Assembly (NCBI RefSeq): GCF_000069945.1 | Contig: NC_010545.1 | Span: 2,305,220 to 2,369,219 of the forward strand | Reading direction: 5' to 3' | DNA: 64,000 bases | From: Corynebacterium urealyticum DSM 7109 | GTDB lineage: Bacteria; Actinomycetota; Actinomycetes; Mycobacteriales; Mycobacteriaceae | Shown: positions 20,701-28,244 of the stretch, in pieces | Position numbering within the stretch: position 1 is the first letter of the stretch | How the letters are laid out: the number at the start of each line of letters is the position of its first letter | Notes under the pieces: model-generated | Databases searched by the model: none | What the model saw: only the letters and a program-made list of their open reading frames with translations | Told to the model about the DNA's origin: nothing | Program-made: the position numbers and the translations under genes

Positions 20701-20767
20701 TATCCGCGGCGAGCGCGGGGGAGTAGCGGTACGGGGTCTGGTCGGACGTGTCAGCTGGGGTGTTCAT
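17732..20767 (-). CDS. leuS: Leucyl-tRNA synthetase
   Basis: A 1011-aa class I synthetase that charges tRNA-Leu. The HIGH box is [10 protein letters not shown] (about residue 72) and the KMSKS loop reads KMGKS (about residue 744), a usual substitution in some actinobacteria. Between them lies the CP1 editing domain (residues ~250-450), with [11 protein letters not shown] and V-P-A-H-D-E-R-D. The length is above the usual ~870 aa of E. coli but normal for corynebacteria. A C-terminal anticodon-binding region contains a low-complexity Ala/Gly stretch ([16 protein letters not shown]). Divergent from the SdpI-like gene with 40 bases between the starts. Confidence 0.97.
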
Positions 20768-20807
20768 GGTTGGTCATTCTAATAGACGGGGTAATAGACT
20801 GAACCGC

Positions 20808-21440
20808 ATGATCGTGCTCACCATCCTGCTGGTTATTCTCGCCCTCGCTGTTCTGACGGTGGGGCTGCTCGGCTTTCTTGAGAAACTGCCTGGTAACGGG
20901 GTGGTTGGCCTGCGTATTCCGGAGGTTCGGAAGTCCTCCGAGAACTGGGTTTTGGCGCACAAGATCGCGGGCCCGGCGTGGATGGGTGCGGGTGCGGCAC
21001 TGCTGGGCGCTGCGTTGTTGACGACGGGGATCGGCGGCTGGATGTGGCTGGTCTTCGCGCTGTTGATCGTGGGGGCGCTGTTCCTGATTGGGATGGGTTC
21101 TGCGATGGCGGCGTCCACGATGGCTCGCCTGGAGCACGTGCGTGGTCAGGAGGCCGAGGAGGCCCGGTCCGCTGCGGGTTGCTGTTCCTCTGGTTCTTCT
21201 TCCAACGACGACGCCTCGGCTGGCGGTTGTGAACCGTCGGCGGAGGAATGTGCGTCGGGGAATGCGTGCGGTAGCTGCTCGCTCAATGGCGCATGCGAAG
21301 GCGGGGGAGCGGCCTTCGACGCAGGTCGGGACGCCGGTTCTGGTGCTGGTGCTGGGCAGGGCGCTCAGCAGGCGGCGGCGAAGCCTGCGCTGGATCTGGA
21401 TGCGGCACGGCGCGCGGTGGCGGAGCAGGACCGCCGCTAG
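20808..21440 (+). CDS. SdpI family membrane protein with Cys-rich tail
   Basis: A 210-aa protein. The N-terminal ~110 residues have three hydrophobic helices and the SdpI/YhfL motif G-L-R-I-P-E-V-R-K-S-S-E-N-W-V-L-A-H-K, the family hallmark; SdpI itself is an immunity and sensor protein in Bacillus. The C-terminal ~90 residues are unusual: a Ser/Gly/Ala-rich stretch with a cluster of eight Cys (GCCSSG, GGC, EEC, NACGSC, GAC). Start at ATG 20808; an AT-rich TAATAG lies 10 bases upstream and the transcript may be almost leaderless. The target is unknown. Confidence 0.85.
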   Translation: MIVLTILLVILALAVLTVGLLGFLEKLPGNGVVGLRIPEVRKSSENWVLAHKIAGPAWMGAGAALLGAALLTTGIGGWMWLVFALLIVGALFLIGMGSAMAASTMARLEHVRGQEAEEARSAAGCCSSGSSSNDDASAGGCEPSAEECASGNACGSCSLNGACEGGGAAFDAGRDAGSGAGAGQGAQQAAAKPALDLDAARRAVAEQDRR

Positions 21441-21471
21441 GGGTTAACGCGGGTACACCTTAGCGCGCAGA

Positions 21472-22035
21472 CTAGCGGAGGTTCGCGCGCTTCAACTTGG
21501 GTCGCGCGATGGAAAAAATCACTAGCGAATAGGCGCTCGCGGCAAGCGTGACCCACAGCGTGGGCTTCCAAAAAAGCGGCAGGAACTTTGCTGGTAGGGC
21601 CACGATCAATAGACACTGCGCAAAGGCCAGAAAGAGTGTCGCGCTCAGCGCATGTAGTGGGGGCTGCACAAGACTTAAGGTCCAGAAGCAGGCCAGACTC
21701 AAGGCGCTAAACTGCCACAAGCCTGCGTTTCCGAACGAGGCGAGCAGAACCAGTGGGAGATACGCAGCACCGAGAAAGGCATAATCCTGTGTCTTCCACG
21801 ACCGGGGGCTGTATTCCTCCCACACCGCGAGGTCGCTGGTGTAGAAGAGCACAACAGCACTGAGAAACAGCAACGCAAAGACGACATTGAACGGCACAAC
21901 AGCGCCGTACGTGCCATCAACCCACGGCAAGGGTATTGCTGTTGTCCCCAGAACAATGGCGCCGCATACAGCGATCGCAATTAGACCAAAGGCCTGGGGG
22001 ACACGGTGGCCACGAAGGTACAGCTTGGTCATCAC
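21472..22035 (-). CDS. Membrane protein, last gene of the exporter-like operon
   Basis: A 187-aa protein with about six hydrophobic helices (e.g. AFGLIAIAVCGAIVLGTTAIPL, VVFALLFLSAVVLFY, AYLPLVLLASFG, LWVTLAASAYSLVIFSI) and a basic C-terminal end (RPKLKRANLR). It overlaps the upstream membrane gene by 4 bases and is the fourth gene of the unit. It may be a second permease half or an immunity protein. No family recognised. GC content looks lower than in the flanking housekeeping genes. Confidence 0.75.
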   Translation of the reverse strand: MMTKLYLRGHRVPQAFGLIAIAVCGAIVLGTTAIPLPWVDGTYGAVVPFNVVFALLFLSAVVLFYTSDLAVWEEYSPRSWKTQDYAFLGAAYLPLVLLASFGNAGLWQFSALSLACFWTLSLVQPPLHALSATLFLAFAQCLLIVALPAKFLPLFWKPTLWVTLAASAYSLVIFSIARPKLKRANLR

Positions 22036-23216
22036 GACGCCACGCAGCCCTCGTTGACCTTGCTAATGAGCGCCTCATGATCGAGCTCTTGCCGAAGGTG
22101 ACCCGATGGCTCCAACACCAAGCGCTTGAGGTCATCAGGGGAGACCCCGTCAAAGGCATCGGCGACCGGCACGGGCCCGTCCTCGCCGAACCAGCAGCTC
22201 GGGGTGCGGCGTAGTGCGTCATCTGCCTGAAGATGCTGCAGGATGAGCACGAGTTCAACCGTGTCGGGGTCGGTGGATCGCACAAGGAGATATTGCTGTG
22301 GTTGCTCCTTCTGCAGGTCTTCCGGTGCAGCTGAGCTGTGTATGTCCCACAGGGACGCCTGCGGCTTGCCGAGAGAGCTCAGCACATCACGATTAGCAGC
22401 CACGACCTCCTCGGGCGTTTCGGGCCATAAACACTGGCTATCGCTGCAGACCAAGTCTTTCTCAGACCTTTGGACGGTCACGTCATAACCAGCCCCTGCA
22501 ACTTGCGAATAGCTAGCAAACCCTCCCAACAGCGCAACGGCTACTCCAGCGGCCACGGCGGCGGTCGTTCCTCGACACCCGGAGCTACCGACATAAATGA
22601 GCACCCACGCTGCCATGAGCAATGCGGCGAGCATCGTGGCACTCGCCGCCACGAAGGAGGAGTTCAGTTCGCGGTCAATACCGCAGCACAGCCCTGCAGT
22701 CTGGCCGAACATGTAGCGCCATTCAGGCTGCGACAGTGCCGGCGGGTAAGCCTGCAGAACAAAGCTCAGGAACATTGCCACGGGCAAGGCGATCAGGCTT
22801 GGAAGATAGAGGCCGCATGCCGTACCGAGTGAAGCCCAAACGAGCGCATGCAGCGCGATAATCAACACGCCTTGCGGCCAGGCCCTGGAGCCGAATCCAT
22901 CGTTGAGAACAAAATGTAGAGTGACGAGCAAAAATGCAATCAGCTGGAGTGGAGCAATCGACCGCAACCATACTTTCCCGGCATAACGTGGCCTGCCCAG
23001 CTGAGTCAGGATTTCGCGAAACCGGGACGCCTCCCACGCGCTCAGGAACCCAAGCAAGGGCCCCAGGACAATGAACAACTGCCAAGACTTATGGAGCGTG
23101 GCTTGCGGGGAACTCGGGTAGGTTTCAGCACCCTCGATGCTGATGTTGAGCCACAAGCTGACAGCGAAACCCACGAGAACGATTAGCGCATTTCGAAGTA
23201 ACGCTTTTCTCATCAC
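22032..23216 (-). CDS. ABC-2-like permease with large extracytoplasmic C-terminal domain
   Basis: A 394-aa membrane protein. Six or seven helices fill residues 1-245 (NALIVLVGFAVSLWL, LFIVLGPLLGFLSAW, LIALPVAMFLSFVL and others). A soluble ~150-residue domain after the last helix has three Cys (VCSDSQC, SCWFG) and an acidic, Gln-rich character; the topology puts it outside. It overlaps the ATPase gene by 4 bases and so is very likely that ATPase's membrane partner. The layout resembles actinobacterial ABC permeases with a C-terminal DUF7224-like domain, but I cannot verify the match. Confidence 0.75.
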   Translation of the reverse strand: MMRKALLRNALIVLVGFAVSLWLNISIEGAETYPSSPQATLHKSWQLFIVLGPLLGFLSAWEASRFREILTQLGRPRYAGKVWLRSIAPLQLIAFLLVTLHFVLNDGFGSRAWPQGVLIIALHALVWASLGTACGLYLPSLIALPVAMFLSFVLQAYPPALSQPEWRYMFGQTAGLCCGIDRELNSSFVAASATMLAALLMAAWVLIYVGSSGCRGTTAAVAAGVAVALLGGFASYSQVAGAGYDVTVQRSEKDLVCSDSQCLWPETPEEVVAANRDVLSSLGKPQASLWDIHSSAAPEDLQKEQPQQYLLVRSTDPDTVELVLILQHLQADDALRRTPSCWFGEDGPVPVADAFDGVSPDDLKRLVLEPSGHLRQELDHEALISKVNEGCVAS

Positions 23217-23941
23217 GCCTCCGACCGGTGGACGGCAGACAACTGCAGAACAGTGGGGGAGATAGGTTCTCCTCGCCAGGTCGTATCGGAGGCGTCAGTT
23301 CGGTCATCACTGAAGCCAATGAAGTCGTCGATTCGCCCCTGAAATGCGAGACAGCCATGATCTAACACGATGACCTGCTCAAATGGTTCGCCGACTTCCA
23401 AGGGCTGGTGGCTGGAAACCCACAACCGGATGCCTCGGTTGATGACGTCGCGATAGAGCTGCCGTAGCTCCTGCTTCGCGATTGGGTCCAGAGTCGCACT
23501 GGGTTCGTCGAGTAACAGCCAGCGCGCCTGAGAATTCAAGGCGGCGGCCAGCTGGAGCTTCGCCTGCTGCCCACCGCTCAGCTGTCGACATTCCTGGCGG
23601 GTTACATCTCCCTGCAAACCCACGAACTCGGCCCAGGTGAGGGCGTCCTTCTGGGCCTGTCGCATGGGAGCCCCTTGCAGCCAACCGACGTAAGAAATGT
23701 AATCCGCCACGTTAAAACCGCTGATGGGCATGAACTTTTGGGCAACGTAGACGGTGCCATCCGCGCTGGGCAGCTTCCCTCGTTGCAGTTTGAATTGTCC
23801 AGCGAGGCAGCGCAACATGGTCGTTTTACCTGCTCCGTTGACACCGAGAACGACTGTGGCAGCATCGTTGATGGCGAGATCGCGGATGTCGATCCGTTGG
23901 GTACTCTGCGGGTAGGCGAAGCGGAAAGAGGCTGTAGGCAT
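23213..23941 (-). CDS. ABC transporter ATP-binding protein of the exporter-like operon
   Basis: A 242-aa ABC ATPase. Walker A is GVNGAGKTT, the Q-loop is VYVAQKF, the signature is LSGGQQAKLQLAAAL, Walker B is RWLLLDEPSATLDP and the H-loop is LWVSSHQP. Start set at ATG 23939-23941: it lies only 11 bases after the stop of the secreted-protein gene, and the frame beyond it overlaps that gene. The C-terminus overlaps the permease start (ATGA), so subunits should be made in balance. Acts at the cytoplasmic face of the membrane. Substrate unknown; the secreted 138-aa protein or an attacker are candidates. Confidence 0.88.
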   Translation of the reverse strand: MPTASFRFAYPQSTQRIDIRDLAINDAATVVLGVNGAGKTTMLRCLAGQFKLQRGKLPSADGTVYVAQKFMPISGFNVADYISYVGWLQGAPMRQAQKDALTWAEFVGLQGDVTRQECRQLSGGQQAKLQLAAALNSQARWLLLDEPSATLDPIAKQELRQLYRDVINRGIRLWVSSHQPLEVGEPFEQVIVLDHGCLAFQGRIDDFIGFSDDRTDASDTTWRGEPISPTVLQLSAVHRSEA

Positions 23942-23952
23942 GGAGTGGCAAT

Positions 23953-24369
23953 CTAAAAGTAGAGGTTCATGATGCGGGCGCTGGTTGTCTGGTAATCCCG
24001 TGACTTTACTTGCCAGTAATACTTCGCATGACCAGGGAATCCCCACGACGCTCGGTACGGCTTTTTAAAGCAATTAGAGACATTTCGAAGCCCCATGTTG
24101 ACATCTGGCTGGAGTCGCCGAACTTTCTTCAACATCAACTCAAGGTACGGGGTAGCCCCGGGGGCATTGGAAGTACAATCGATCAACCCTGCCTGCACTG
24201 CATGCGCACCCACATGGTTTACGCGCTGCGATTGAAAACCGGTGCGAACGCGCTCAAGTCGTGTATTGATGACGCTAGCGTCGGCAGGGGCGGCAACGAG
24301 GCTTGTTGACAAAGCCAGGGCTGCGGCAACCGCGGTTACCCCTCGCCGGTTCTGCATAATTTTACGCAT
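23953..24369 (-). CDS. Secreted 138-aa protein, possible bacteriocin or effector
   Basis: A small exported protein. The signal peptide is MRKIMQNRRGVTAVAAALAL...APADA with cleavage likely after about residue 31. The mature part of ~107 residues is basic, has two Cys (LIDCTSNAPG and NVSNCFKKP) that could form one disulfide, and ends in an aromatic segment (SWGFPGHAKYYWQ...MNLYF). I recognise no family. The first gene of a four-gene unit with an ABC ATPase and two membrane proteins, a layout seen in lactococcin-972-type bacteriocin loci, but the mature sequence does not match that family. Start at ATG 24369 with GGAGAGG upstream. Confidence 0.75.
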   Translation of the reverse strand: MRKIMQNRRGVTAVAAALALSTSLVAAPADASVINTRLERVRTGFQSQRVNHVGAHAVQAGLIDCTSNAPGATPYLELMLKKVRRLQPDVNMGLRNVSNCFKKPYRASWGFPGHAKYYWQVKSRDYQTTSARIMNLYF

Positions 24370-24415
24370 GTATTCCTCTCCGAAATCGTACGGACCGCAA
24401 CTCTATCCCTCCTCA

Positions 24416-24421
24416 ATTGTA
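24416..24421 (-). promoter_or_regulatory. Candidate -10 box for the secreted-protein operon
   Basis: TACAAT on the minus strand, 47 bases before the first start codon, in an AT-rich stretch. No -35 box with correct spacing is clear. Confidence 0.4.
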
Positions 24422-24540
24422 CTATTGATAGATTACCCAACCAGGGGTATCGCGTGCCCGGAATCTGCGGCTTCTGTAATGCACCTGTGGCGTTGGCCAC
24501 CCCCTTCCGAGACAACCCCAGGCAAGCCCGGGGCGTCTTC

Positions 24541-27657: not shown

Positions 27658-27733
27658 CGCCCGTTCGGGGCCGCGCGGGGAGCGGGTGTGCTTCCAGGGC
27701 GGCCCCCGCACCCGCGAGCGGGGCACGCCCCCT

Positions 27734-27811
27734 CCTTCACGTTTTGCAGAGTTTGATGTCGCTTTTGGGCGGATTTCCGGCAACAAACTCTGCAAAACAC
27801 ACAATCGGGGG
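27734..27811. repeat. Palindromic repeat, copy 1
   Basis: 15-bp arms GTTTTGCAGAGTTTG (27741-27755) and the exact complement (27784-27798), a ~28-base middle, and flanks CCTTCAC and ACACAATCGGGGG shared by all three copies. Confidence 0.9.
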
Positions 27812-27877
27812 AGCGGGTTCCGGTGCCCGCGCGCTAACACGTCCCCACGCCCGCACTCTCCCGCACCCCCCGCACCC

Positions 27878-27955
27878 CCTTCACGTTTTGCAGAGTTTGA
27901 GGTCGGTTTTGGGCAGATTTCCGGCAACAAACTCTGCAAAACACACAATCGGGGG
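27878..27955. repeat. Palindromic repeat, copy 2
   Basis: Same arms at 27885-27899 and 27928-27942; the middle differs from copy 1 by a few bases. Confidence 0.9.
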
Positions 27956-28166
27956 CCAGGGCACGGGGAAGTGGGCACCCTCGAGGGGGCCGGACAGGGG
28001 CCACCGGGGCACCGGCGCGGCCGGGATTCCGGGGCGGGGCAGGGGGCTGGCTCCCGCGCCCGCGCACGCCCTCCAAGCCCCAAAGCCCCCAAAGCCCCCA
28101 CCCGCGAGCGGGGCATCCCCACGCCCGCGCGCTAACACGTCCCCACGCCCGCGCCCTCCCGCACCC

Positions 28167-28244
28167 CCTTCACGTTTTGCAGAGTTTGATGTCGCTTTTG
28201 CGGGGATTTCCGACATCAAACTCTGCAAAACACACAATCGGGGA
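28167..28244. repeat. Palindromic repeat, copy 3 (longest stem)
   Basis: The arms extend to 21 bp (28174-28194 with 28211-28231) because both inner sides changed together (ATGTCG / CGACAT). Copies 2 and 3 are preceded by the same GC-rich flank (GCGCTAACACGTCCCCACG), so the three repeats lie in a larger repeat block at 27658-28300. No gene is seen in this stretch. Confidence 0.9.

Follow-up and report, generated by a model that had tools for sequence, protein, structure and literature searches.

A four-gene operon of Corynebacterium urealyticum DSM 7109 joins a small secreted protein to an ATP-binding cassette (ABC) transporter. It lies within a 64,000-nucleotide stretch of contig NC_010545.1 (positions 2,305,220 to 2,369,219, hereafter the window), and its genes are here called A, B, C and D. 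We read A-B-C-D as a mobile cassette in which A would be a Sec-secreted bacteriocin and B, C and D an ABC exporter giving immunity, and put the probability of this reading at about 0.6; killing and immunity are what we infer from the behaviour of the genes. Seen directly are the gene set itself, the Sec-type signal, a conserved family, the linkage, one-sided loss and horizontal spread; the folds of A and C come from models. The same set recurs in many genomes, so the arrangement is more than chance. Loci that have lost A retain B-C-D, and A very seldom occurs apart from an ABC gene, which argues for a toxin and its immunity. Confidence in the readings given here comes from this linkage and loss, not from the fold of C.

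The features are as follows (coordinates in the window).
23953..24369, minus strand: A, 138-amino-acid (aa) secreted protein, putative bacteriocin; Sec-type signal at about 1-31, conserved Cys65 and Cys100
23213..23941, minus strand: B, ABC ATPase of 242 aa; Walker A, Q-loop Gln, LSGGQ, Walker B-Glu, H-loop
22032..23216, minus strand: C, 394-aa membrane protein; residues 1-217 modelled as an ABC-2-like exporter domain, about 243-394 as an outside domain with four Cys
21472..22035, minus strand: D, 187-aa membrane protein, second putative permease subunit; hydrophobic segments
21444..24527, no strand: stretch with other DNA in a sister species (903 bp there, without similarity to A-D)

The operon and its proteins

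The genes form one tight operon on the minus strand, and the layout given by the original prediction, four genes at 21472..24369 with 11 bases between the stop of A and the ATG of B, is confirmed. The 4-base overlaps (B/C and C/D) that it described hold if C and D start at GTG; since both starts read GTGATG, the genes may just as well begin at ATG and overlap by 1 base. Promoter-like sites are at chance level (1 found, 0.9 expected), and none of the 5 terminator-like sites (2.9 expected) is convincing.

A has a charged start, a hydrophobic run (about residues 10-29) and an A-D-A cleavage motif, with no Cys before residue 65. Cleavage after A31 gives a mature protein of 107 aa (12.3 kDa, pI 10.3) that contains Cys65 and Cys100, probably joined as one disulphide, and ends in ...MNLYF, in line with the signal peptide, mature length, two Cys and aromatic end originally foreseen. 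Twelve members of the A family, scanned singly at E up to 10, gave nothing below E 0.06 in Pfam-A and two weak matches alone in NCBIfam, WGxxGxxG_fam (E 0.003, the best; 2 of 12 members) and BRANT_His_rich (E 0.005; 4 of 12), both taken as composition. Against PDB sequences no match was better than E 1.1. A known enzyme or toxin family was sought in Pfam, NCBIfam, PADLOC and PDB sequences and nothing convincing emerged, so the earlier view that A fits no known family stands, and no enzyme family that would undercut it was matched in Pfam, NCBIfam or PDB sequences.

The AlphaFold model of mature A is a basic two-Cys beta-sandwich. Among the best 50 matches from Foldseek and from VIA it is likened to many jelly rolls of lectin, carbohydrate-binding module (CBM) and TNF-like type, and the lactococcin 972 (Lcn972) fold is in neither set. 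One of these Foldseek matches, a bacterial mitogen with a jelly roll, falls below E 0.001, and the VIA matches include PirA.

B carries every ABC ATPase motif looked for, with VYVAQ in the Q-loop region, and its PADLOC matches were all to generic ATPases. C and D each have several hydrophobic segments. C matched no Pfam family, ABC-2 membrane models included, and D matched TrpP alone in Pfam (E 0.15) and no ABC-2 membrane model; A, C and D are thus without a convincing match to any curated family. The AlphaFold model suggests for residues 1-217 of C an ABC-2-like exporter domain that aligns with the ABC-2-type exporters ABCG, ABCA and NosY, from which C differs in having no Pfam family and in its outside domain (about 243-394), which these matches do not cover. 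C is tentatively predicted from this model to be an ABC-2-like exporter subunit with an outside domain, and D is putatively the second permease subunit. The outside part of C contains four Cys (257, 262, 341 and 391), one more than originally counted.

Distribution, linkage and loss

Occurrence in Corynebacterium was surveyed in 242 genomes, one per species. At E <= 1e-40, B was found in 28 of them at 29 places; the match in G215 (L065; 35% identity inside a 543-aa open reading frame (ORF) with no C adjoining) was dropped, leaving 28 loci in 27 genomes, all with their surroundings examined. A is intact at 10 loci (the window, L007, L008, L044, L049, L053, L056, L057, L058 and L064), partial or interrupted at 8 (L009, L052, L055, L059, L060, L061, L062 and L063, with its status uncertain at L061, a contig end, and at L063, where the start is unclear), and was not found at the other 10 (L041, L042, L043, L045-L048, L050, L051 and L054). 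An ORF of 367-416 aa occupies the position of C at 26 of the 28 loci (L052 lacks it, and in L053 it is split into two frames), and full-length C is kept at 17 of the 18 loci without intact A. These losses are counted as loci and not as independent events, seven of the A-less loci sharing the ispF site. At this ispD-ispF site (named by eye), B-C-D is present in nine genomes (L009, L041-L048); L044 has an intact A, L009 a remnant and the other seven no A. Neighbouring genes differ among the sets of G000 (the window genome), G024, G004 and G181.

The reverse search with a profile of A found 19 places, intact or remnant, in 18 of the 242 genomes. Eighteen adjoin B, and the last (G162) lies directly upstream of an ABC ATPase gene, making 19 of 19 linked. 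The G162 protein (L184:7273-7875) is a distant 200-aa relative of A with extra Cys, next to a more distant ABC ATPase; C and D were not recognised there. Searching 5.8 billion proteins with the A2 profile returned 15 proteins, one of them from Corynebacterium diphtheriae (P0030) and another encoded on a plasmid of Streptomyces alboflavus; A or C used as a single query returned near-identical copies alone.

Two weak Streptomyces matches of A in a tblastn search of plasmids (E 0.1 and 0.5) both lie inside the same four-gene set. Streptomyces and G004 queries matched 16 plasmid records in all, of which 12, with 13 regions, were examined (the others are NZ_CP109318, NZ_CP109126, NZ_CP108550 and CP077967). 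A, B and C occur together in 12 of the 13 regions, and two further plasmids carry B-C-D without intact A (L099 and L100; in L100 a remnant of A matches weakly, E 5e-4). The annotation of the 12 Streptomyces plasmid records gives A, C and D, where it lists them, as hypothetical proteins.

Across the phylum, the A4 profile matched 4 of 396 sampled genomes, the window genome included. In genus g28, centred on the positive genome G288 and regarded as Streptomyces because its sets resemble those of the named plasmids, it matched 44 of 295 genomes at 55 places, covered by 47 regions; plasmid records and genomes were counted separately and may overlap. ORF starts in these high-GC (guanine plus cytosine) genomes were over-extended by the script, so that the lengths obtained are maxima. 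In 46 of the 47 regions B lies after A on the same strand, and C is recognisable in 43. The gene orders are A-C-D-B (22 regions), A-B-C-D (16), A-B-C (5), A-B (3, with a more distant B) and A alone (1). Outside the clusters, B-type matches number 7 in 651 kb, which places the A-B linkage far above chance.

Two to four A genes occur in 7 of the 47 regions. In L142 (G707), four A-type genes on both strands surround one C-D-B transporter, and L138, L151, L153, L010 and L090 have pairs of A genes on one strand; these may be two-component or multi-specific toxins.

Co-occurrence of A with the transporter was the check that the original prediction had proposed, with A lacking the transporter in most genomes as the contrary outcome. 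The opposite of the latter was found: A is linked at 19 of 19 Corynebacterium places and in 46 of 47 Streptomyces regions, and it is B-C-D that often occurs without its partner.

Some matches were set aside. G342, from the same phylum and another class or family, has a weakly A-like secreted protein of 155 aa (L086:1474-1941, L185). Next come proteins of 174 aa, whose start looks twin-arginine-like by eye, and of 179 aa. The 14-kb region gave no match to B, C or D, and the G342 protein is kept as unexplained, outside the Corynebacterium and Streptomyces counts. Selenomonad matches (L005 and L006) are parts of mfd-like ORFs (by eye) and due to chance. A phage origin was rejected, since none of 50,697 phage records matched at E <= 1. 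Recurrence in many genomes, together with the purifying selection described below, excludes chance or an annotation artefact as the source of the set.

Probable acquisition and flanking DNA

The operon has a GC content of 0.58, against 0.647 for the window, and among 612 sliding segments as long as the operon, itself counted, 3.9% have a value as low. At third codon positions (GC3), A-D have 0.59-0.68, leuS 0.93 and rbsK 0.91; low GC3 alone is no proof of import, because the adjoining SdpI-domain gene has 0.71. In the sister species G017, whose rbsK is 96% identical and whose flanks have 95.4 and 96.3% nucleotide identity, the place of 21444-24527 of the window is taken by 903 bp that show no similarity to A-D, so that the operon is present in one of the two genomes and absent from the other. 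The replacing stretch (L107:2154-3056) has a low GC content (0.56) and a run of 296 codons free of stops, and the site may take different cargo. Acquisition, as originally proposed, is favoured by the composition of the operon and by its scattered places, which suggest that it was gained rather than lost.

Beside the operon, 20748-21440 encodes a protein with an SdpI/YfhL domain (Pfam PF13630, E 2e-16) and a C-terminal tail rich in Cys and Ser. It was considered as the immunity gene of the operon, and an SdpC/SdpI pair likewise, and both were rejected: the gene is on the opposite strand and belongs to the flank common to the operon-less sister. Farther off, at 27722-28243, an 89-nt repeat occurs three times, at 89-91% identity to the reference copy; every copy contains the dyad TTTTGCAGAGTTTG...CAAACTCTGCAAAA, a potential hairpin element.

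Function and rival readings

In the mechanism that we favour, A would be made with its signal peptide, exported by Sec and then, in the medium, folded as a small beta-sandwich of strongly basic character, probably with one disulphide, which would attack an envelope target of neighbouring actinobacteria. B (the ATPase) with C and D (two membrane subunits, C being ABC-2-like) would form an exporter to which the producer owes its protection: it would catch A at the membrane, possibly through the outside domain of C, and expel it or strip it from its target. The original prediction offered a bacteriocin, or a secreted factor with its own exporter, immunity or sensing transporter; linkage and asymmetric loss make a bacteriocin with an immunity transporter the best of these, while an exporter of its own is unlikely, because A carries a Sec-type signal and needs no dedicated one.

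Lactococcin 972 and streptococcin B loci (lcn972-orf2-orf3 and scbABC) offer the nearest organisation: a bacteriocin thought to be Sec-secreted is followed by putative immunity ABC transporter genes (PMC11796350, PMC4055356), orf2-orf3 being the putative immunity genes (PMC4055356). The loci are plasmid-borne or strain-variable (PMC11796350, PMC4055356); the full scb locus occurs in 72.5% of 571 pneumococcal genomes, and about a quarter of strains keep scbBC without the bacteriocin gene (PMC11796350). A-B-C-D shares with them a Sec-signal gene followed by transporter genes in one operon, variable presence, and a transporter kept without the bacteriocin gene. It differs in the two conserved Cys of A, in three transporter genes rather than two and in its place in Actinomycetota. 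A was rejected as a lactococcin 972 family member by sequence, the same 12-member scan (E up to 10) having matched no Pfam or NCBIfam lactococcin 972 model. A-B-C-D is organised like these loci and belongs, judged by sequence, to another family; the immunity part of the analogy is itself partly inferred. Lactococcin 972-like class IId bacteriocins have also been predicted in Corynebacterium by antiSMASH, as lactococcin 972 homologues (PMC12188740); they resemble A in being secreted and in genus, and differ in that A has no lactococcin 972 match.

B-C-D, with an ATPase and two membrane subunits in one operon, also resembles a second kind of immunity transporter. The LanFEG transporters for lantibiotic immunity are encoded by one ATPase gene and two membrane subunit genes, and LanF proteins have Glu at the position of the Q-loop Gln. 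B has the normal Gln, as have two Streptomyces relatives (WLPQ and WMPQ), C has a large outside domain, and no lantibiotic modification genes are among the direct neighbours in the window; on the Q-loop residue B-C-D was rejected as LanFEG. In its organisation, A-B-C-D is like the lactococcin 972 and LanFEG kinds.

Several observations go against the original prediction. An intact-looking A stands alone in Streptomyces G662 (L174:6928-7347) beside a MurJ/MviN-like gene (named by eye), with no B, C or D match in 14 kb, and a second solitary A is found close to one end of a linear S. clavifer plasmid of 36 kb (L097; only the plasmid was examined). A was also expected to evolve fast, and this expectation failed. 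In four closely related sets (L008, L056, L057 and L058), the ratios of nonsynonymous to synonymous substitution rates (dN/dS) are 0.13-0.40 for A, 0.10-0.20 for B, 0.19-0.24 for C and 0.15-0.52 for D, so that A is under purifying selection and not hypervariable in the one clade tested. Between L008 and L064, A is the best kept (67%, with B 60%, C 37% and D 34%), and mean distances over 55 Streptomyces sets (A 0.69, B 0.46, membrane part of C 0.73, outside part of C 0.84) leave A less divergent than the outside domain of C and not the fastest-evolving part. Recognition of A by that domain received mixed support from co-divergence, measured as partial correlations from which shared ancestry is not fully removed. 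The divergence of A tracks that of the membrane part of C more closely than B accounts for (partial r 0.40-0.52, a height that none of 500 label shuffles reached in any group). With the outside part, partial r is 0.38 over all sets and 0.43 in the A-B-C-D group (0 of 500 shuffles as high in each), and 0.09 in the A-C-D-B group (96 of 500).

Other readings draw on the same data. A might be a secreted non-toxic factor, a lectin-like binder or signal, with B-C-D as its sensor or processing or export transporter; the lectin, CBM and TNF-like jelly rolls likened to its model would suit this, and toxicity of A is putative. We hold it unlikely: the Sec-type signal makes an exporter needless, 17 of the 18 Corynebacterium B loci (of 28) without intact A keep C, and the genes directly adjoining in the window include no two-component system. 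That B-C-D moves another molecule (a lipid, small antibiotic or wall precursor), with A as an outside helper of transport, is consistent with the alignment of the C model with the lipid and drug exporters ABCG/ABCA and with NosY, and with B-C-D alone at the ispF site in seven genomes. It is rather improbable, given how rarely A is without an ABC gene, and the multiple A genes in Streptomyces regions better fit several toxins served by one immunity transporter than one helper.

A as an enzyme, protease inhibitor or adhesin with an incidental neighbourhood could account for the solitary genes in L174 and L097; linkage in two gene orders and two genera, and the want of a match to any known enzyme family, make this very improbable. 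The mitogen and PirA matches point towards a target of A in a eukaryotic host or predator instead of in bacteria, a reading to which we give equally little credence.

The expectation of an undescribed four-gene system tying a secreted protein to an ABC transporter was upheld, since A, C and D have no curated family and the set recurs; a literature search (open PMC papers, titles and abstract starts) found no description of an A-B-C-D family. We consider the odds a little better than even that these genes represent a family, not described before, of jelly-roll-like bacteriocins that have two Cys, are secreted by Sec and are served by a dedicated immunity exporter of one ATPase and two permeases. 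Plasmids and horizontal transfer would have carried it through Corynebacterium, Corynebacterium diphtheriae among its species, and through Streptomyces, in some cases with several toxin paralogues per transporter. Bacteriocin activities in corynebacteria have long been reported, with the gene not identified; open PMC papers yielded nothing relevant on such a named corynebacterial bacteriocin, and this family may be the genetic basis of those activities. If the bacteriocin reading is right, this would be a new protein bacteriocin family in two heavily studied genera and a concrete candidate, open to test, for the way in which corynebacteria, and likewise streptomycetes, compete without contact. 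It would also provide a defined putative immunity transporter whose outside domain is open to toxin-binding tests, and a new small scaffold, the basic two-Cys beta-sandwich, for trial against actinobacterial envelopes.
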